Positions 7,609 to 53,010 of a DNA stretch of 64,000 bases are shown one piece after another. The stretch is from assembly GCF_000724545.1 (NCBI RefSeq), contig NZ_JHBV01000043.1:124001-188000 (forward strand), read 5' to 3'. Under the pieces are notes generated by a model. The model was given only the letters and a program-made list of their open reading frames with translations, was not told the origin of the DNA and made no database searches. Both the position numbers and the translations under genes were made by a program. This DNA comes from Aureispira sp. CCB-QB1 (GTDB lineage: Bacteria > Bacteroidota > Bacteroidia > Chitinophagales > Saprospiraceae). The stretch's first letter is position 1; the number at the start of each line of letters is the position of its first letter.

Positions 7609-7776
7609 GATAGTTTATTTTTTGTCTAATGCAATGGCTTATTAAAAATTTAAGAATCACAATTCTTAATTAGTAGTTCGCTAATTCGCACCTTATGCTT
7701 CGTTGCTCCCTCTGGTTATTAGGGGAAAACTTAGTCAACAGAAGATAAAAGAGTAGATTTACATTACTTTGTCAAC

Positions 7777-7789
7777 GAACGATTACTTA
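7777..7789 (-). repeat. Isolated family A terminus
   Basis: GAACGATTACTTA is the exact complement of the TAAGTAATCGTTC terminus of the family A elements at 32321, 46038 and 48391. No matching second end or core was identified nearby, so it may be a relic or a chance match. Confidence 0.35.
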
Positions 7790-18204: not shown

Positions 18205-18263
18205 TAAGAAGAGGTCAGAAAAATAATAACAAAAAATGGGATTATTTTTTTGAACATTACTTA
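18205..18263 (-). repeat. Short (59-bp) family A element lacking its centre
   Basis: Runs from TAAGAAGAGGTCAG to GAACATTACTTA. Its first 45 nt closely match 46044-46088 (shared GGTCAGAAAAA and AAAAAATGGGATTATTTTTT), yet the middle containing the CCACG core is missing. It is thus an internal deletion of the element seen in full at 46038-46219. Confidence 0.75.
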
Positions 18264-32320: not shown

Positions 32321-32504
32321 TAAGTAATCGTTCATAAAAATTTATAGGCAAAATAGAATTCTTTTTGCACTGTTCTTCATCAAAAAATCTCGTTTTAGCC
32401 CGCTACCACGAAGTAGCACCGCAGGTAAAACTTCAATTCTTTTCTTTGAACAGCACTAAAAACAATTACATTTTTAACTATACTTTTTTCTGTCCACTTA
32501 CTTA
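32321..32504 (+). mobile_element. Family A MITE-like element (184 bp)
   Basis: It starts TAAGTAATCGTTCA and ends CCACTTACTTA, giving a 7-bp terminal inverted repeat TAAGTAA/TTACTTA. The interior shares TTCTTTTTGCACT, CTTCATC and CGCTACCACGAAGTAGCACC with the element at 48391. It contains no open frame. A non-autonomous mobile element is the simplest reading. Confidence 0.7.
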
Positions 32505-36202: not shown

Positions 36203-36510
36203 CGTATTCTATTTATAAGTGTACTTGAATAACAGCTAGAACACTTAAAAAAGTTCGATGAAATAAGTATTAATCCGCTTAAAAATTGCATTGGATTGAT
36301 TGTTAATTTAATATAAAATAAATTTTTATATCTCGCTAACTAAGAGTAGCAACTTCATATGAAATGAAGGTTATGAAATAAATACCACGCAGTAGCAGCA
36401 CAGCTAACTAAAAGCGCAACGCTCACGAAGTACCACGCAGTAGCAGCGCAGCTAATCACCAAGCTACAAACCTTAATAGGGAGGAGCACAAAACGGTTTG
36501 TTCATGAACA
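36203..36510. other. Repeat-rich spacer between RNA ligase and helicase genes
   Basis: It holds two core-repeat copies (36385 and 36433) separated by AAAAGCGCAACGCTCACGAAG, and an AT-rich part next to the ligase with the motif AGTTCGATGA at 36252, similar to the family B end. No gene. Confidence 0.6.
36385..36460 (+). repeat. Tandem pair of CCACGNAGTAGCAGCG core repeats
   Basis: Two direct copies start at 36385 (CCACGCAGTAGCAGCACAGC) and 36433 (CCACGCAGTAGCAGCGCAGC), 48 nt apart, both continuing TAA. No terminal inverted repeat could be assigned. Confidence 0.8.
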
Positions 36511-38279: not shown

Positions 38280-38369
38280 GCGAATGACAACTTTGTTCTT
38301 ATGGAGCATGGAAATCTTTACAAGGGGGAGAATAGAGTGGGCATTCTATTTCAAGAGGTTCCTAATTAC

Positions 38370-38513
38370 AATAGTTCGTTGAAAAATCGTATTAGTTTGA
38401 TTATCAGTAAGATGTATTTTTATTAACCTTTGCGCTAAAAGACTGATAATCAAACTAATGCAAGATGCTTTTTTACGTTTTTCGTAGGAAAACTAAAAAA
38501 TCAACGGAGTATT
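38370..38513 (+). mobile_element. Family B MITE-like element (144 bp)
   Basis: The ends AATAGTTCGTTGA (38370-38382) and TCAACGGAGTATT (38501-38513) are inverted repeats with 11 of 13 matches. Inside lies a perfect 18-bp inverted repeat (38391-38408 and 38442-38459) with TTTGATTATC in its arm. The element at 41312 shares both ends and the TTTGATTATC segment. No open frame. Confidence 0.65.
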
Positions 38514-38642
38514 AAATTAGATACCTATTTAGTTGAAAAAAGAATAATTAGCCGATAGACGGTAGGCTAAAGGTTGTTTTTCTTATGGAAAATGGCTATC
38601 TTAAAATGCAAAATGCTTGACGATATGATATTAAAACAAAGT

Positions 38643-41311: not shown

Positions 41312-41543
41312 AATAGTTCGTTGAAACCACGGAGTAGCAGCGAAGCTAAACTTTATTAGTTTAGCTGCGCTGCTACTCCGTGGTACTTCGTGAGTGCTGC
41401 GCAGTTGATAATTAACGAGTTGTTCATTTGTTGTGATTTGAGTTAAAGATTTGATTATCAAATTAATATAAATGTAATTTTTTGTCTTTTTGGTAAAGAG
41501 TAAAAAATCAACGACCACGAAGTAGCAGCGTAGCTAACTACTA
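41312..41543 (+). mobile_element. Family B MITE-like element carrying core repeats
   Basis: It starts AATAGTTCGTTGA (41312-41324) and shows the matching end TCAACGA at 41508-41514, after which a third core copy runs 41515-41543 to TAACTACTA. The interior contains the hairpin at 41327-41383 and the TTTGATTATC segment shared with 38370. The core seems to have been inserted next to both ends. Confidence 0.6.
41327..41383. repeat. Near-perfect 26-bp inverted core repeat
   Basis: Left arm 41327-41352 (CCACGGAGTAGCAGCGAAGC then TAAACT) and right arm 41358-41383 are complementary at 25 of 26 positions with a 5-nt loop. Both arms are the core repeat. It lacks a T run, so it is not a typical terminator. 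Confidence 0.85.
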
Positions 41544-41547
41544 ATAG

Positions 41548-44500
41548 TTAATACCTAAAGATAAAAAAATCATTGCTTCTATTAATATGCCTTGTGGTAG
41601 GCACTTGCTGACCATCTGTCAATTGATGTACGTTAAAGGTGACATATTGTTGTAATTCTGAAATTTTTACCAAGCCATCTTGATCTAAGTCTGCTTTTTG
41701 AGACTGCAAGCCTTCTAATACAGAATAAGCAAAAGCACTGTTGTTCCATTCCTTAGATTCCAAAGCAAATTCCATCCCGCCAGCTGCCGAGATAATCGTT
41801 GTTCCAGTACCTTTGGTAACATTAGAAAATAAGGTTTGCATATAGGCAAATGAATTATTAAGCCCCATTTTAGGATGGAGGGTATAATCGCCACTTTTGG
41901 GATAAGCTTGAACTGCTTCGTGAGGCAATGTTGTTTGTGCTAACTGTTCAACTTCTGACTTGTCTATCTCACCAGAATGGCAAGCATCGATAAATAGTAA
42001 GCGTTTGCGAGCAGGAATTTGAGCCAATATACTTTCTAAGGTTTGATAGGCAAGCCCGCCATATTGAGGTTGCTCGAAATTGGTATCGTGCATAGCCAGA
42101 TAATAATTGAGTTGATCGTCCAACAAGCCATGACAAGAAAAATATAAGATGATTTCATCGTCCACAGTTGTGTTTTGGAGGAGTTCTAATTGTTGAAGGA
42201 CATATTTTAAAGTGGCTTTTTCATTGTTGATATAATGGGTATGAATTTGTTGGTAAAATGTTGTTTGATTGGAAAATGCGGTTGCAATGTCTTGTGCATC
42301 TTTGCTGGCAAAGGTTAAGTTTCTACTACTATCGGCATAGTTAGAAACTCCTACGGCAAAGACATACAACTCTACGGCTTGTTTAGTGGGTTGGTTATAA
42401 GCGACTACTTTTTTTCTTTTTAAACTTTCTGCTCCTTTTTTATTGGTTACAGATAAGGTGATTTCATTTAAGCCTTGCGAAAGTTGAAGTTGGATTTTTG
42501 CTGTTTGTTGATTTGGATTTCCGTTGGATAAATCTTTGCCCAATAAGCCATAAACAGGAACATCGTTGACATAGACATTCAAACGATTCAACGTTTCTTG
42601 TGTGTCTTCTAGAGCTACATCAAATTCAAGATAGCTTTTTTTGACTTCAAAAGGCAGCGGATCCATTATGGACAAGGACGGAACATGAAATTGATCATCT
42701 AGCATATCAGGAGTATAGCCCATTTTTTCCAAACGTTTGTTGTAGGCTTTTTGCAGCATACGATTTAAAATAGAACTCGCTAGTCCTAGAGAATCCATTA
42801 AAATATCAGGGCGATTGAATTTTAAGTCAAATTGCTCAAAGTTAAAGAGTTGTTGTTCTTTTTTGAAGGCTACCCAATCCAATGCCTTTTGAGTTGCCAT
42901 ATAATAGCCATCTTCGGTATATAAAATATAATCGTTTTGGTCAACCAAAATCATTTTTGCCAAAATAGACCAAGATTTAGTATCCCAAAAAATAATTTGC
43001 GCATCTTGACCAGCAGTAGCCATTATGGCTTTGTTCGGATGGAAACTAATGGCAGTAATCAAGCTAGAATGTCCTTCCAAGCGATGCAAGAGTTTTCCTG
43101 ATGAAACTTCCCAGATTCGAACCTGATGATTGCCCCAACCGCCAACCAAATACTTTGAATTAGGGCTAAAAGCCAAGGCAGAAACATGAACAGGAGCACA
43201 GATTTTTTGAGATGTTTCAGAATCCATTTGCCAATGAAAACAATTGTCCACAACCAGCGGAATTTTGGTTTTTATCGTATGTTTGACAGCATCAACAATG
43301 TAAATACTAGCAACGGTCTCCGTTCGACTTTTGTATTCTTCTTTTGCGGCAATGGCAAAGAGTGTTGCTTGGGCATTAGTCGCAGTTGCGTTGCGCTCCC
43401 CAAAATCCCAAAACATAGCGCCTAGATCTAATTTCCCTGTTTTCTTACCTGTATTAACATCATAAAAATGCAAAGCATTGTTGGCAGTTACTTTTTCATA
43501 ATTTTTGATTTTACCAACTTCTAACAAGGCAACCTCCTTGCCCGCATTCATAAAGTGAACATTGGGCTTGTGTTCCTCTTTTGGATTAGGCATTTTTAAT
43601 TGTCCTATATAATGATTGTTGTTGATATTTTGCTGACTAATTTGGTACAAATTAAAATCCTCATCAATCGCTGCGGTATGATTTTGATTAATGACAACAG
43701 ATTTATCTACATAATCAAATGTTTTTTCTGAAAGCCCTAAACTAAATAATGGTTGCGCTTTGCTTTTTTGACGAAGTGTCACGATGTCTTGATAACTATA
43801 ATCATTAGTTTGAACAATACCTGCTCCATGAAACCAATAATAATTGATAAAACAGCTTTGTCGATTTGGTGAAAAAATCAACTGTTTGACCTCATCCGAT
43901 GCCAGCGTTGTGGTGGGTAAATTGCCCACTTCTCTAAATTTCCATACATTGAGAAGAGAATGTTTGTTGGGTATATAAGAGGACTCATTTTCGACCATCC
44001 ACAAACTTTTGCCTTTGGGATCAAAAGAAAGTGCATTGATCGTTTTTCCAAGAGAAGCATATTCTCTCAATACGAATCCTGTTGATAAATCTATTTGGCG
44101 TATGGTAATAATATCTGGCTCAAAGTCACCTTGAAATTGGGTAAAGTGGCTTCCACCTCTTGCCGAGTTATTGCCTGCAAATGCAACAAAGACACTATTC
44201 CCATCAGCACTACTTGTGATAGCGGTAATGTCGCCCAAATGTTGTATCCGTTCTGGAGAGGTATTGCCTCGAACATCTTTGGCAGACCACGTCTGTTGAA
44301 TCAGAATTTCTCCAGGAGTACACACATAAATAGAATCATAATAACTATAAACAAACTGCCCATGAGGAGTCATACAATGGTTCATGACCACATTTTCTTG
44401 TTCCTTTAGTAATGTACCCATACTATCGACTAGCTCCCCTGTTTCTAAGCTGTATTTTCGCCAATAAACTTTGTTCCAATCTAATCCATTTTCAGGAATG

Positions 44501-45291
44501 GTATAAAAAAATGTATTATTTTTATCTGGAATGGCAGCATAAACCCGTCCACCTTTTATAGCGGGCAATGGAATGCGTTTTTGGGGCAGACCAGTACGAG
44601 CATCCAATAAAAAAACAACCTCTCCCGCTTCGGTGTTTTCATCTAGACCTTCTCCCCAGTCCAACCCCATGCTTAAGGTAGTTTGCTGGTTAGGGGTATG
44701 ATAAACGCCATATTTAAACGATGTCCAATGTTCTTGGCGATGGGCTTTTGAGAAGGATTTGTTTAAGTTATAGTAGGGGGTAGATTGAGCTTGAAGACTT
44801 TGAAGGTTATAATAAATCAATTGTTGCCCATTAACCCCTTCACAGAAAACAACCGATTTCCCATCAGGAGAAAAAAAGCCTCCAGCCAAGTGTCGATCAT
44901 CGCCATCTTGAAATGACTCTAATAAAATTTTATGATCCGAAACCCGCAAAAGTAAAAGCTGATCTACCACTTCTGAACGAACAAAACAAAGCAGATATTG
45001 ATTGTCTTTGGAAAACTCTAGTTTTGAAATTCGGGCGTTTTCTCCTAACAAATTCCATTGTTTAGCACGAAAAGTATTGGACTCAATACCTGAGTCTAAA
45101 TCCCTAAAGCGAATGGACATATCAGTTCCCCCAGTAGCTAATGTCTTACCATCAGAACTTATGGCAATGGTAACAATTGGTTCGTGATGTCCTTTTTGAA
45201 AGCGTAACTCTACTTTTTGGGCATGCGTGGGAGATGGGTTTAGCAAGAAGGAAATAACAAAAAGAACAAGGAATATAATGGAGTGTTTCAT
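41548..45291 (-). CDS. Exported WD40-repeat caspase-like protease
   Basis: This 1247-residue protein has a signal peptide (MKHSIIFLVLFVISFLLN, cleavage near THAQ). WD40-type repeats start at once (PIVTIAISSDGKTLATGGTD) and recur to about residue 775 (SALAFSPNSKYLVGGWGNHQ, ITAISFHPNKAIMATAGQD). The C-terminal 260 or so residues are a peptidase C14 (caspase/metacaspase) domain opening YVFAVGVSNYADSS, with dyad H1054 (LYFSCHGLL) and C1104 (FIDACHSGE). No T9SS tail, so periplasmic. It lies 4 nt after an RDD membrane protein gene, clearly one operon. Substrate and trigger are unknown. Confidence 0.88.
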   Translation of the reverse strand: MKHSIIFLVLFVISFLLNPSPTHAQKVELRFQKGHHEPIVTIAISSDGKTLATGGTDMSIRFRDLDSGIESNTFRAKQWNLLGENARISKLEFSKDNQYLLCFVRSEVVDQLLLLRVSDHKILLESFQDGDDRHLAGGFFSPDGKSVVFCEGVNGQQLIYYNLQSLQAQSTPYYNLNKSFSKAHRQEHWTSFKYGVYHTPNQQTTLSMGLDWGEGLDENTEAGEVVFLLDARTGLPQKRIPLPAIKGGRVYAAIPDKNNTFFYTIPENGLDWNKVYWRKYSLETGELVDSMGTLLKEQENVVMNHCMTPHGQFVYSYYDSIYVCTPGEILIQQTWSAKDVRGNTSPERIQHLGDITAITSSADGNSVFVAFAGNNSARGGSHFTQFQGDFEPDIITIRQIDLSTGFVLREYASLGKTINALSFDPKGKSLWMVENESSYIPNKHSLLNVWKFREVGNLPTTTLASDEVKQLIFSPNRQSCFINYYWFHGAGIVQTNDYSYQDIVTLRQKSKAQPLFSLGLSEKTFDYVDKSVVINQNHTAAIDEDFNLYQISQQNINNNHYIGQLKMPNPKEEHKPNVHFMNAGKEVALLEVGKIKNYEKVTANNALHFYDVNTGKKTGKLDLGAMFWDFGERNATATNAQATLFAIAAKEEYKSRTETVASIYIVDAVKHTIKTKIPLVVDNCFHWQMDSETSQKICAPVHVSALAFSPNSKYLVGGWGNHQVRIWEVSSGKLLHRLEGHSSLITAISFHPNKAIMATAGQDAQIIFWDTKSWSILAKMILVDQNDYILYTEDGYYMATQKALDWVAFKKEQQLFNFEQFDLKFNRPDILMDSLGLASSILNRMLQKAYNKRLEKMGYTPDMLDDQFHVPSLSIMDPLPFEVKKSYLEFDVALEDTQETLNRLNVYVNDVPVYGLLGKDLSNGNPNQQTAKIQLQLSQGLNEITLSVTNKKGAESLKRKKVVAYNQPTKQAVELYVFAVGVSNYADSSRNLTFASKDAQDIATAFSNQTTFYQQIHTHYINNEKATLKYVLQQLELLQNTTVDDEIILYFSCHGLLDDQLNYYLAMHDTNFEQPQYGGLAYQTLESILAQIPARKRLLFIDACHSGEIDKSEVEQLAQTTLPHEAVQAYPKSGDYTLHPKMGLNNSFAYMQTLFSNVTKGTGTTIISAAGGMEFALESKEWNNSAFAYSVLEGLQSQKADLDQDGLVKISELQQYVTFNVHQLTDGQQVPTTRHINRSNDFFIFRY

Positions 45292-45895: not shown

Positions 45896-46264
45896 CAATA
45901 CTATTTTGTTTTTCATTAGTCTAAAAAAAATAAGTCGTATATCATTTGTTTTTAACAAAGGTATACGACTCAAAATTAATAGAATTCTACAAAAAATAAG
46001 TTAATTGTATTTTAATACTTTAGAAAAGTAAAAAAGCTAAGTAAGAGGTCAGAAAAAATAAGAACAAAAAATGGGATTATTTTTTTGCTAGTCCAAGAAG
46101 AAAAAGGAAGGCTTAGCGAGCTAAGACAAGTTTTTCTGATGAAGCGTAGCGCAAAAAGAAGGCTGTTTTAGCTGCGCTGCTACTGCGTGGTACTTGTTAT
46201 TTTTTTGAACGATTACTTACCTTCTATCGAATGCCTAAAAAGGGGCAAAAAATAGGTAAAGATC
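45896..46264. other. Spacer with promoter-like element and family A repeat
   Basis: It contains a minus-strand -7-like TACCTTTG (45963-45956) for the RDD operon and a full family A element at 46038-46219. No gene. Confidence 0.65.
46038..46219 (-). mobile_element. Family A MITE-like element (182 bp), reverse orientation
   Basis: It runs from TAAGTAAGAGGTCAG to GAACGATTACTTA. Read on the minus strand it starts TAAGTAATCGTTCA and then follows the 48391 element through CGCAGTAGCAGCGCAGC, CCTTCTTTTTGC, CTTCATC and TTAGCTCGCTA. Its right third, with AAAAAATGGGATTATT, is shared with the short copy at 18205. Confidence 0.72.
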
Positions 46265-48298: not shown

Positions 48299-48648
48299 AG
48301 TTTTAAGTTTTTTGTTAAAAGGTTCTTTTGTATTGCAGTTCCGTTAAATACGCTGTAATAAACAGGTCAATAGGTTATTATTTGGATAGATAAGTAATCG
48401 TTCAGAAAAAATTCTATAAACCACGAAGTAGCAGCGCAGCTAAACAACCTTCTTTTTGCACTACTCTTCATCGGAAAAATTTGCTTTAGCTCGCTACCAC
48501 GCAGTAGCACCGCAGGTAAAACTGTACATTTCCTCTTCGATTAGCACTAAAAATAAGGCTATTTTTTGCCTATAATTTTTTATACCCACTTACTTATTGA
48601 TGATTATTACAAAAGAAATAACAGAACGCTATTCATTATTAGTGTTGT
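48299..48648. other. Spacer holding a family A element
   Basis: The element at 48391-48596 fills most of these 350 nt; no other feature is recognised. Confidence 0.7.
48391..48596 (+). mobile_element. Family A MITE-like element (206 bp), most complete copy
   Basis: It starts TAAGTAATCGTTCA and ends CCCACTTACTTA. It contains two core copies, 48421-48443 (CCACGAAGTAGCAGCGCAGC) and 48497-48516 (CCACGCAGTAGCACCGCAGG), with TTCTTTTTGCACT and CTTCATC between them. The first half matches the element at 46038 and the second half that at 32321. Confidence 0.75.
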
Positions 48649-51600
48649 TTATTCAATCAATAAAAAAGCCGCCCAATAGTAAGGGTTTCTATAGCGTTTT
48701 CGCATCGTGTGTTGTGCTTCTTCAAAAGCTTGGTGTGCAGATTTGCCGTTGATATACCCTTGGTAAAACAACTGCATTAATTCGGATGTTTGAGCATCTG
48801 GAACTTTCCACAAACTAATTAATAATTGCTTGGCACCAGCAGTTTTGAAAGCACGACGCAAGCCCATGATACCTTCATTGTTATCAATATCTCCACGCCC
48901 TGTTTCACAGGCAGATAGAACGACCAAATCTGTATTAAACAAGTCCATATTGGCAACCTCTAGAGCTGTCAATATACCATCGTCCAGCCCTTCTATCTCT
49001 GCTCCTCCTTTCCACACACGATTGATACCTGCTAACGCTAGCCCTGAACGTAATAAGGGATTGGACAGATTAGCAATTTTATCTTCTAATGTGGCTAATT
49101 TTTTGGGGTTAAGCCAACTGTCATCGTCTTCATCGGAGGTAGGGGTGGGAAAGAAGTAACCATGTGTGGCAATGTGAAGAATGGTAGGCGAGTTATCTGC
49201 TAAAATTTCTAAATTTTCTTCTGTGGCTAAGGTATCGGTTAATAAATTAACGACCCATCCTTCTGGAAAAACATTGGATATCGCATTAACTTCTTCTAAC
49301 GTACCAGGGAGGTAATTAAAATCTTCACCTCTAGCCCCTCTAGAGTAAGCCAAATCCTCTTCGCTTAATTCTCTTTCTTCAAATGCTTTTTCTAAGTTTA
49401 ATTCAGGAATATCGTTGCGTTGCGCCAAGTTTTGGATTTCTTCTTCTGTGAAGGTAAACTTTACCCCTCCAACGAGCCCCACATTGGTGACTCCTGGGCT
49501 TAGTTTGCCTACTTGCGGGTTTAGCAAATCACGGAGTGAACTGTAGTAGTGAATGGACCAATCATCCATAATACGGCGTTGGTCATAATCGCTTGTTCGC
49601 AAAGTACCAAAGGCAATTTTACTGAGAATTCCTCCAGGACAAATATGCAACCGTTTGGCATCTAGTACATAAGGCAACAACGGCTCCCAAACCAATTGGT
49701 ACAAATAACGACTTTCCAACTCATCTGTAATATAATTGATGGTATTGGGGGCAATATCTGGTGCCAAGACATCTCCCAATTCTTCTTCTGTTGCCAAGCG
49801 AACAAAGATAGGAGCTTCGTAGTTAGAACCAATAACAGCAGCATAGTAAACGGCAGTTTCATAACCACTTTCGTCTACTTGATCTACAATTAAAAAATCA
49901 ATAGCAAGGGCTGAACTATCTGGAGTTTCTACAGCTTTTAAGATTTGTTTTAGTTGATAAAAATTAAGTTGTTTATTATTCTTACCAAAGTAATCTCTCA
50001 AATCTTTAGAGGTCACCCCAATCTCTTTTTCTAGGTCAACAATTTGCGCACTAATATCGTTTTGTTTGTCTAAGGGCAGCGATGTAGATCTGGCCAACAC
50101 TTTTCGAAGTGCTTGCATTTCGTGGCATTTTTTCTTGAGAACTGTATTTTCTGTTTCATTACAAATACTTTGTAAATTGGTGGATGTTTCTAAGGCCAGC
50201 CCCTTGACAGTCAAGTGTGCATTAAAGGCAGCTAAAGTTAAGGTGCTGTCTTTTCTAGGTAGCGCAAAATTAAAAAACGAATTCAGACGCTTAGAGATAG
50301 GATTTAAAAATAACAGGCGTTCTTTTTCTGCTAAATTGTTGTAGTTGGCTTCCAATCGTTTCAAATCAATCTGCAAAGCATCTTTATAATAGATAGCAGC
50401 CATAGAATCTTGTTCAAGGTTCTCATAGAACTGAGCAAAGGCAAGGTTCAAATTGGCCAACTCGTCTCTATCTCTAATTTTTTGTATAGCAGTTTTATAA
50501 TAATAAATAGCCTGAGCTGTATCTCCTTTTAATTCTGCTAAATAGGCTAGGTCAGACTGGAGCGAAATATCTTTTTGGAAAGAAACGGGTGTTCTTTTAT
50601 CATTTTCAAAAGCTTTAATATCATTGTAGTAACTTTCTGCTAACTCTATATAACCGTTGTTTAAATGTATTCGCCCAATATGTCGTTGAATTTTAATGTA
50701 AAGTAGTGCCATGTCAAAATTTTCATAGCGACTAAGGCTCGGATTATAAATTTCTGCCGTAGCCAAAGCACTCATGGCATTATCAAATGATTTCATAGCG
50801 ATTTCGGGCTTCCCTTTTTGATAAGCAATCAATCCTAAATCGTCCAAGCATTTAGCAATAAAAACAAATTCTCTTTCTTTGATAGCTTGATTGACAGTTT
50901 GATAGTATAACAGAGCAGCTTTGTTAAGACGACCTGTTTTTCGATAAATTCTAGCCAAATTATAAGAAGCTTCAATGATCGTAAGAATGGTCTTTTTTTG
51001 CTTAGGTCGTTCTTCGTAATAATTGATGAGCGAACGATAATAACTTTCCGCTGAAACTAAACGCTCATTTTTGTAATGCCAATCGGCATATTTTTTTAAG
51101 TATTTGAGATAATCAAAGCCAATGCCTTGGTCTTGCTTTAAAATTTTTAATTCCTCTTCAAAAAAGAAGGCACTTTCTTCGGGAGTCCATGGGTCATATT
51201 GCTCCAAGTTGCCGATGATTCTCCTAACAAGAACTTCATATTCATAACTTTTGCCTTCTAAGTTGCTGTAAGTATCCAAAATTCGTTTGTATGCCAAAAA
51301 AGCTTCTCTAGGATGCCCAGGATCGCTTTTACTATAAAAATACCCATCAGCAATCAATTCTAATGCATTGTTATATTCAACACTATAGTTTGTAAACTCT
51401 TTGGCGATACTATCTAGTGGTGCTCTTAATAATTCTTTTAGGGGTTCTATCGGATATGTTTTAGGAAGATAGGCGATAAGTGTGTAACTAATTCCTGCAG
51501 GGTCACTTTTGAACAAAGAGTCAAGCCAAGGCGTCGCCACGTAATAATTTGAGGTGTCTAGTTTTCGAATGCCTTTAAACAAAAGATTTTCTCCATCTCT

Positions 51601-53010
51601 ACCAAAGTCATATTCTTTGAGATAGTACCAAGCTGCTTGAAACATAGCTCCAATATATTCCTTGCTATTTTGACCATAGACCGATTTCATAACTCGCAAA
51701 TTGCGTTCTTGGATAACATATATTTTCCAAGGGTGCACAACCTTTTTTATGTACTGCTCAAAAAGAGTTGGGCTACGATCAATAGGAAGTTCTATTGCAA
51801 GTTCGTCAAGCAAATTAAAGGCTTTTTGGTAGAGCTTTAGAGCATTTTTATCACTTCCATCCAAGGCTTCTAGGTTCGCTAATTGAATCAAAGCACCTAC
51901 ATATTGCTCACTTTTACCAAATTCCACTTCAATCTGTTTTACAATACTCTCTTGAATGGCAATTTTCTTTTCTTCATTGGTCAAATCCCAAGTGTCTTGA
52001 ATGGCTTTGACAATAATATAATATTGCCCTTTTTTACCTCCATGGTGTGTTTCTAAGTCTTTTAAGACCAATTTGAAAATTCGATCAGAATCATAATAAA
52101 TAAAGGTAGCATCGTCTGCGAGCTGTAGAAAAGGACGAAGGTCTGTAATAAAAGTATCACTAGCAGTTTCGTGTCGTTTGATTCTATCCATGATATCTTT
52201 TTCCAAAAGATAGAACTTTTTCATTTTAGGGTTAAACGTAGCAAAAGCCTTTTTGTATTTGGGGTGTTTTTTGCCGAGTTTTGCTTCGTAGATGTCTAAG
52301 GCATCTGCCAGCCAAGTGTAAGCCGTATCAATATACATATACTCGAAATATCGGATGTCGCTATGTATGATAATATCTGCAAAAGCAGTTATTTTATCGG
52401 CTAACTCAATACTATCAATAGGAGGAGAGAAGGCTTCTTGAACCTGAAGTTGTTGTTCAATAAAAGCAATAATGTCTGTAGGTAAATATTCAGACATGTT
52501 TTGATAGATTGGAGTACGCTTCTCTTTAGGTAATTTGGGTAAAATTTTATAGGCTTGGTAAGCATACTCGTAGGCATCGCCAGATTCTTGATCTAAGAGG
52601 TAAATTTTAGCGCGTTGCAAAAGTGCTTTGACATAAGAAACGGATAGCTTTTTATTGGCTTTTTCAAGTTCTTCAAGTGTCAAATCAGCATCAATTAATC
52701 GGGCTTGATGTTCTGAAAGTTGTGCCAAAGATTCTAAGTATAGATTACTTTTCGAGCCTTTTTCTTTTCGAATAATTCGAAGACCAATAGCTGCCCAAAT
52801 TCGAGCTTCGTCTTGGTTGTTTTCATCTTGATAATATAATAGCGCCAGATTTAAAGCTGCTTTGCCATATTCGATGTGTTCCTTGCTATATAGGGTCTGA
52901 GCTTCGGATAATTCTTGTTGTGCTTTGGTTAAGGCTTGCGGGCTTACTTGACTATGCGAATACTGAACAACCAAACAAAAGAATAGAGAGAGTAAAAGTT
53001 TGCTATGCAT
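48649..53010 (-). CDS. Exported TPR-CHAT caspase-fold protease
   Basis: This 1453-residue protein has a signal peptide (MHSKLLLSLFFCLVVQYSHS). TPR-like helical repeats fill about residues 30-930 (LAYLAELKGDTAQAIYYYKT, YNLARIYRKTGRLNKAALLY, AYQKGKPEIAMKSFDNAMSA). The C-terminal 400 or so residues are a CHAT domain: LHICPGGILSKIAFGTL, H1283 (LHIATHGYFF), C1368 (VVLSACETG) and KTAGAKQLLISLWKVPD. CHAT is the family of separase-like and TPR-CHAT bacterial proteases such as the one activated with gRAMP effectors, but those act in the cytoplasm and this one appears exported. No adjacent CRISPR or partner nuclease. It may act with the caspase operon downstream. Confidence 0.88.
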   Translation of the reverse strand: MHSKLLLSLFFCLVVQYSHSQVSPQALTKAQQELSEAQTLYSKEHIEYGKAALNLALLYYQDENNQDEARIWAAIGLRIIRKEKGSKSNLYLESLAQLSEHQARLIDADLTLEELEKANKKLSVSYVKALLQRAKIYLLDQESGDAYEYAYQAYKILPKLPKEKRTPIYQNMSEYLPTDIIAFIEQQLQVQEAFSPPIDSIELADKITAFADIIIHSDIRYFEYMYIDTAYTWLADALDIYEAKLGKKHPKYKKAFATFNPKMKKFYLLEKDIMDRIKRHETASDTFITDLRPFLQLADDATFIYYDSDRIFKLVLKDLETHHGGKKGQYYIIVKAIQDTWDLTNEEKKIAIQESIVKQIEVEFGKSEQYVGALIQLANLEALDGSDKNALKLYQKAFNLLDELAIELPIDRSPTLFEQYIKKVVHPWKIYVIQERNLRVMKSVYGQNSKEYIGAMFQAAWYYLKEYDFGRDGENLLFKGIRKLDTSNYYVATPWLDSLFKSDPAGISYTLIAYLPKTYPIEPLKELLRAPLDSIAKEFTNYSVEYNNALELIADGYFYSKSDPGHPREAFLAYKRILDTYSNLEGKSYEYEVLVRRIIGNLEQYDPWTPEESAFFFEEELKILKQDQGIGFDYLKYLKKYADWHYKNERLVSAESYYRSLINYYEERPKQKKTILTIIEASYNLARIYRKTGRLNKAALLYYQTVNQAIKEREFVFIAKCLDDLGLIAYQKGKPEIAMKSFDNAMSALATAEIYNPSLSRYENFDMALLYIKIQRHIGRIHLNNGYIELAESYYNDIKAFENDKRTPVSFQKDISLQSDLAYLAELKGDTAQAIYYYKTAIQKIRDRDELANLNLAFAQFYENLEQDSMAAIYYKDALQIDLKRLEANYNNLAEKERLLFLNPISKRLNSFFNFALPRKDSTLTLAAFNAHLTVKGLALETSTNLQSICNETENTVLKKKCHEMQALRKVLARSTSLPLDKQNDISAQIVDLEKEIGVTSKDLRDYFGKNNKQLNFYQLKQILKAVETPDSSALAIDFLIVDQVDESGYETAVYYAAVIGSNYEAPIFVRLATEEELGDVLAPDIAPNTINYITDELESRYLYQLVWEPLLPYVLDAKRLHICPGGILSKIAFGTLRTSDYDQRRIMDDWSIHYYSSLRDLLNPQVGKLSPGVTNVGLVGGVKFTFTEEEIQNLAQRNDIPELNLEKAFEERELSEEDLAYSRGARGEDFNYLPGTLEEVNAISNVFPEGWVVNLLTDTLATEENLEILADNSPTILHIATHGYFFPTPTSDEDDDSWLNPKKLATLEDKIANLSNPLLRSGLALAGINRVWKGGAEIEGLDDGILTALEVANMDLFNTDLVVLSACETGRGDIDNNEGIMGLRRAFKTAGAKQLLISLWKVPDAQTSELMQLFYQGYINGKSAHQAFEEAQHTMRKRYRNPYYWAAFLLIE

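Follow-up and report, generated by a model that had tools for sequence, protein, structure and literature searches.

Family A, a palindromic and probably TA-inserting MITE family in part of the genus Aureispira

The window analyzed here is a stretch of 64,000 nucleotides from the marine bacterium Aureispira sp. CCB-QB1 (contig NZ_JHBV01000043.1; G000:C43:124001-188000), whose genome (G000) comprises 7,365,792 bases in 184 contigs. The original prediction had placed four copies of a repeat, Family A, in this window, three full-size and one short, and all four were recovered at those coordinates with the ends and interior blocks attributed to them. All three full-size copies contain, with small changes, the ends TAAGTAATCGTTCA and C[AT]CTTACTTA as well as the blocks TTCTTTTTGC and CTTCATC, and the 46-kb copy carries the variant block GACCTCTTACTTA. 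The copies and their parts are as follows.

18205-18263, minus strand: 59-bp short copy of subfamily I whose ends have diverged
32321-32504, plus strand: copy of subfamily II, 184 bp; minus its module, it matches another copy of the genome (162 bp) exactly
32406-32427, plus strand: 22-bp module at site 2 (hairpin apex) of the 32-kb copy
46038-46219, minus strand: copy of subfamily I, 182 bp; the orthologous gap lacks a copy in G006 and G003 and is partly N in G001
46169-46190, minus strand: 22-bp module at site 1 of the 46-kb copy (19-base pattern at 46172-46190; 22 bp by reading)
48391-48596, plus strand: copy of subfamily III, 206 bp, with the 22-bp module at both sites; two sister copies (L002 and L003) are 96% identical to it
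48391-48397, plus strand: left terminal inverted repeat TAAGTAA of the 48-kb copy, its outer TA being the presumed duplicated target
48421-48442, plus strand: 22-bp module at site 1 of the 48-kb copy (19-base pattern at 48421-48439; 22 bp by reading)
48497-48518, plus strand: 22-bp module at site 2 (hairpin apex) of the 48-kb copy (19-base pattern at 48497-48515; 22 bp by reading)
48590-48596, plus strand: right terminal inverted repeat TTACTTA of the 48-kb copy

Genes near the copies (41548-45291 and 48649-53010) include one whose product combines TPRs and a CHAT domain (PF12770), and a gene in these intervals encodes WD40-like repeats together with what we take to be a caspase-like motif. 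A 13-of-14 match to the left end also lies at 7776-7789 on the minus strand, where the rest of the element is absent.

Genome-wide searches recovered many more copies than the four in the window. The 14-base left end had 109 exact matches, compared to 1 for a reversed-pattern control, and a 19-position right-end pattern had 71, compared to 0 in the control; blastn with the 206-bp copy returned at least 63 matched stretches in the same genome among the best 40 of 492 candidates scored. Within the window alone, 21 matches to the left end were found at up to 3 mismatches, against a shuffled mean of 9.46 (maximum, 20), and none of 100 shuffles reached 21. The sequence is thus repeated beyond chance. 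In the portion of the genome examined, a search allowing up to 1 mismatch located 117 left ends, for which a right end was present in 77 cases and absent in 40.

Complete copies (n = 76) span 58 to 240 bp, with sizes clustering at 58 to 64, 74 to 76, 130 to 140, 159 to 164, 181 to 188, and 206 to 240 bp, and were assigned by eye to three subfamilies: I (46-kb type), II (32-kb type), and III (48-kb type). TA stands at the start of all 76 complete copies of 55 to 245 bp and at the end of 73. Six of the seven pairs of the terminal inverted repeat TAAGTAA...TTACTTA are invariant among 21 aligned copies, and the seventh is A-U in 20 and G-U in 1. Gene context is known for 71 complete copies, and none of these falls within an ATG-started open reading frame (ORF) of at least 100 amino acids, a further 6 being at locus edges. 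Pairwise differences among the 162-bp copies of subfamily II (n = 17) do not exceed 3 bases (mean, 0.87), a near-identity that is the mark of a recent burst. In one relative (G001, L229:1146-1152), the end of a copy provides the stop codon of the upstream ORF.

Family A was matched in 4 of the 20 genomes searched, namely its own, G001, G003, and G006, with no match in 4 other genomes of the genus or in 12 more distant genomes. G001 and G006 are uncultured Aureispira. A scan of named genomes with a conserved 22-base pattern returned at least four contigs of two uncultured Aureispira isolates, which correspond to G001 and G006, a minimum, as G003 holds the pattern and was missed. Plasmids and phages searched as carriers gave no match, and viral contigs gave no exact match to the 22-base pattern.

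Orthologous gaps were then compared among relatives. The gap corresponding to the 46-kb copy is empty of Family A in G006 and G003 and in G001 contains other repeats and a run of N; the gap corresponding to the 48-kb copy is empty of it in G006, G003, and G001. Two other gaps are filled in two species each: a copy at G000 C30:366274-366337 shares its gap with L157 of G003, and one at C29:183358-183519 shares its gap with L213 of G001, in both cases in the same orientation and at different distances from the genes. Because of these two gaps, not every site is clearly species-specific; they may represent old insertions common to both species, or else separate insertions into one gap. The family is neither limited to the copies first noticed nor held only at conserved positions lacking empty sites, though these two gaps are occupied in two species.

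The one clean empty site concerns a copy in G006 (C213) situated between two genes, where the same gap lacks a copy in G001, G000, and G003. In G001, one TA marks the exact point of insertion, while the element carries a TA at each end, and the alignment score was 243.9 with TA kept compared to 238.7 with none; against G000 the corresponding scores were 206.0 and 204.0. Against G003, a 7-bp TAAGTAA join scored higher than TA (162.6 versus 159.1), and the 7-bp join also scored higher for G006:C258 against G000 (187.0 versus 180.9) and for G001:C358 against G006 (134.3 versus 124.3). At G001:C358, 15 bp of the target, including a start codon, are gone beside the element, a loss that simple TA duplication does not explain. 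Overall, the clean site points to insertion at TA and duplication of that TA; the other pairs do not discriminate, and the same process may apply there. A search for internal empty sites within other repeats was not productive, as BLAST of the flanks gave only the copies themselves among the matches listed. The original prediction of a MITE-like element is upheld by the dispersed copies, the 7-bp terminal inverted repeat, the exclusion of all 71 copies from ORFs, the gaps lacking the element, and the clean TA-duplicated site; we conclude that Family A is genuine gene-less mobile DNA residing between genes.

Part of the length variation is due to a 22-bp module, CCACGNAGTAGCANCGNAGNTA, which occupies two sites in Family A, site 2 being the hairpin apex. 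Its 19-base pattern has 256 matches genome-wide, compared to 0 in the reversed control. By this pattern, complete copies of at least 150 bp (n = 53) carry no module in 30 cases, a module at site 1 in 9, at site 2 in 11, and at both in 3; none of 12 copies in relatives contains it. When the module was removed from the 184-bp copies, four of seven became identical to a 162-bp copy, and the other three differed by 1, 2, and 8 bases. Three of the four identical pairs belong to subfamily II with the module at site 2, and one to subfamily III with the module at site 1. Within subfamily II, two sequence variants each occur with and without the module, so at least three gains, losses, or conversions would be needed. 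The module has come or gone several times, recently enough that the host copies otherwise match. These data also bear on the claim that the 48-kb copy is a mosaic of the 46-kb and 32-kb copies, which we reject: it falls in its own subfamily, III, alongside two copies that are 96% identical to it (L002 and L003). It resembled a mosaic because it carries the module at both sites, sharing site 1 with the 46-kb copy and site 2 with the 32-kb copy.

The module is also found inside other palindromic repeats, and within the window it occurs outside Family A at the following positions.

2021-2039: module, one mismatch
2073-2094: module
36385-36406: module, one mismatch
36433-36454: module
41327-41348: module
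41362-41383, minus strand: module
41515-41536: module

It is conceivable, at somewhat less than even odds, that the 22-bp module moves in its own right as a micro-element, inserting cleanly at two sites of Family A and into other repeats, a reading strengthened by the fourth identical pair, as this comes from another subfamily and the other site. Two further repeats were noted in passing. Another palindromic repeat of about 148 bp, with ends AATAGTTCGTTGA ... TCAACGGAGTATT, lies at window positions 38369-38515 and has many matches in G001, G006, and G003. A repeat in G001 (L115:1501-1617 and flank) has ends TAAGTAGATGGACAAAA...TTTTGTCCATCTACTTA and, by eye, an apex hairpin and the 22-bp module in common with Family A; in 709 kb of sequence from the present genome, ends of this type were represented by 1 weak left end and no complete copy.

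Short copies were compared with long ones on the assumption of one internal deletion. The fit was at least 0.90 for 16 of 23, four of them perfect, and below 0.90 for the remaining 7. Some microhomology was present at 22 of the 23 deletion junctions and reached 3 bases or more at 16, values that are inflated by A runs and include one 20-base case that is an artefact of an inverted core. Internal deletion seems to account for most short copies; exact single-deletion derivation establishes this for some, and it is probable for others. In four short subfamily-I copies (L041, L042, L056, and L098:4489), the AT-rich core is apparently inverted relative to other short copies. Lone ends occur on both sides: when left ends were taken in genome order, 4 of the first 30 lacked a right end, and 5 of the first 30 right ends lacked a left end within 3 mismatches, L178 and L195 retaining a damaged left end by eye. 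A one-ended, retro-like origin had been raised by the many lone left ends and was dropped, since truncation affects both sides.

The fold of the element was analyzed in 21 hand-picked, module-free copies of about 162 nucleotides from four genomes (13 from the present genome, 1 from G001, 2 from G006, and 5 from G003), aligned over their full length. They share an end-to-end imperfect hairpin of 55 pairs, 14 of which have double changes, and 96.2% of cells are paired. Cells changed on both sides numbered 58, compared to a mean of 20.5 in shuffles that ignore the relatedness of copies; none of 500 such shuffles reached 58, and sliding the structure gave at most 18. For further pair types, which was one of the five measures used, 33 of 500 shuffles attained the observed value. 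At about 162 bp, the element without its module forms one imperfect hairpin from end to end, and this hairpin covaries across the four genomes.

The two strands differ in predicted stability. The consensus folds at -30.6 kcal/mol on the reverse strand (TAAGTAAGTGG...CGATTACTTA) compared to -2.7 kcal/mol on the other. At pairs that are predominantly Watson-Crick, there were 36 G-U versus 4 A-C cells, or 10 versus 2 when the structure predicted on the other strand is used. At 69 opposed hairpin positions, for pairs predicted on that strand, G-U occurred in at least one sequence at 24 and A-C at 5. Because of that choice of strand, this excess of G-U over A-C is only suggestive of a preference for the reverse strand. 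Individual copies gave z-scores of -0.94 (plus, unremarkable) and -2.75 (minus, moderate) for the 206-bp window copy and -4.33 (plus) and -6.09 (minus) for the 162-bp copy L053; over 63 distinct copies of the genome, means were -3.15 (plus) and -3.94 (minus), with the minus strand lower in 45 of 63.

Such asymmetry, along with the 15 bp missing from one target, would suit an element that is mobile as folded RNA or ssDNA, in which the TAAGTAAGTGG...CGATTACTTA strand serves as the working form and the mobility machinery recognizes its hairpin. We regard this as improbable. The longer pair list was predicted on the favored strand, which itself favors G-U, and related copies are not independent; moreover, most short forms and most subfamily-I copies show only weak asymmetry. 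At the clean site, the duplicated TA suits a cut-and-paste transposase, the lone ends described above show that either end can be kept in truncated copies, and the genome search described below detected no Y1_Tnp. A covarying hairpin in an intergenic position, adjoined by eye to terminator-like hairpins in several copies, is likewise what would be expected if the copies were structured RNA parts selected by the host, such as terminators or mRNA-stability hairpins. That account is very unlikely, given orthologous gaps without the element and the recent burst of near-identical copies. There is also no clear orientation bias, as a gene reads into the element in the hairpin sense in 34 cases and in the other sense in 28 (71 copies), and Rfam gave no match in the window at gathering thresholds nor in 48300-48700 at an E value of at most 1.

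The search for a mobilizing enzyme covered two transposase families genome-wide. DDE_3 (IS630-type) gave no matches at an E value of at most 1e-3 (4 candidates scored), and Y1_Tnp (IS200/IS605, RAYT) gave none at the same threshold (11 candidates scored); 3 and 5 of 14 control genomes, respectively, were matched. End pairs 300 to 6,000 bp apart were also enumerated in the window and 49 further loci of the genome (709 kb), and none of the ORFs inside three such pairs was transposase-like. Pfam analysis of ten proteins beside solo left ends (10 of 40 such ends) identified no transposase family, and 2 of the 10 had no family at all. The copies carry no transposase ORF, and a transposase elsewhere is an inference for which the three end pairs, the ten neighbors, and the two families searched provided no candidate. 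A gene-cassette reading, in which ends bracket genes, was set aside, as few candidate pairs were found. One of them, L138:3063-4675, holds by eye a DegQ-like protease gene between a solo left and a solo right end; by eye, neither end is present in the orthologous gaps of G003.

The absence of Y1_Tnp matches also speaks against placing Family A among REP/BIME-type families, for which a RAYT (Y1 transposase) would be the mover. Family A is palindromic and intergenic, as such elements are, and its 22-bp module contains GTAG, which is reported as the tag of one REP super-family (PMC3733652). Its length of about 162 bp, its 7-bp terminal inverted repeat, and its TA termini set it apart from REP elements, and we give this explanation next to no weight.

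We propose, with a probability of roughly 0.8, that part of the genus Aureispira carries, in Family A, a fully palindromic and non-autonomous MITE that inserts at TA, is moved in trans, and probably descends from a module-free ancestor. The mobile unit would be AGTAATCG...CACTTACT with TA on both sides. It would insert at a TA dinucleotide that is then duplicated, as at the one clean site and presumably at the rest, and a putative transposase would move it in trans. The module-free form of about 162 bp is probably ancestral because this form is seen in relatives. Short forms would derive mostly from internal deletion, and gain or loss of the module in the present genome has been recent and repeated. 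Counting against this proposal, no transposase with these ends turned up in the loci and families searched, DDE_3 is absent, just one empty site is clean, and 7 of 23 short copies fit one deletion poorly.

Family A resembles ERIC/RUP-type MITEs in how it would work and may be viewed as a new family of a known kind of element. ERIC/IRU/RU-1 of enterobacteria is described as an intergenic element of 127 bp with a 7-bp terminal inverted repeat, TA termini, a target site duplication, and a long stem-loop (PMC2229807), and a second source describes duplication of TA at target sites and a transfer mechanism that is not elucidated (PMC2759123). Family A is likened to ERIC by features and not by sequence: the 7-bp terminal inverted repeat, TA termini, long stem-loop, and intergenic position. 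It differs in belonging to another phylum, in its 22-bp module, which also occurs dispersed by itself, and in having three subfamilies and many deletion forms in one genome. RUP of Streptococcus pneumoniae is described as a simple 107-bp AT-rich repeat with hairpin-paired terminal inverted repeats and TA-containing targets, thought to be moved in trans (PMC2229807, PMC3049150). RUP has terminal inverted repeats in common with IS630-Spn1, and DDE_3 (IS630) is the usual partner of TA-inserting MITEs (PMC2229807). Unlike RUP with IS630-Spn1, Family A resides in a genome in which no IS630-type DDE_3 domain was detected. BOX of S. pneumoniae is composite, with ends kept and an inner module in variable number (PMC3049150). 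Family A likewise has kept ends and a variable inner module; boxB is described there as a tandem part of BOX, whereas the 22-bp module also sits in other repeats. Finally, an IS982-derived MITE of Cardinium (Bacteroidota) is reported to have spread in one lineage, with a parental IS proposed (PMC9769881); it shares the phylum and the one-lineage spread with Family A, for which the searches described above gave no parental IS.

Title and abstract-opening searches with limited wordings, mostly of the open literature, found no paper on Family A. The family adds a palindromic, probably TA-inserting MITE from Aureispira (Bacteroidota) to those described. If the 22-bp module is a mobile micro-element, mobile units would be nested within one another in this genome, the smallest being 22 bp long. 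Recent copies with and without this module constitute a natural experiment on the gain and loss of parts in hairpin elements.
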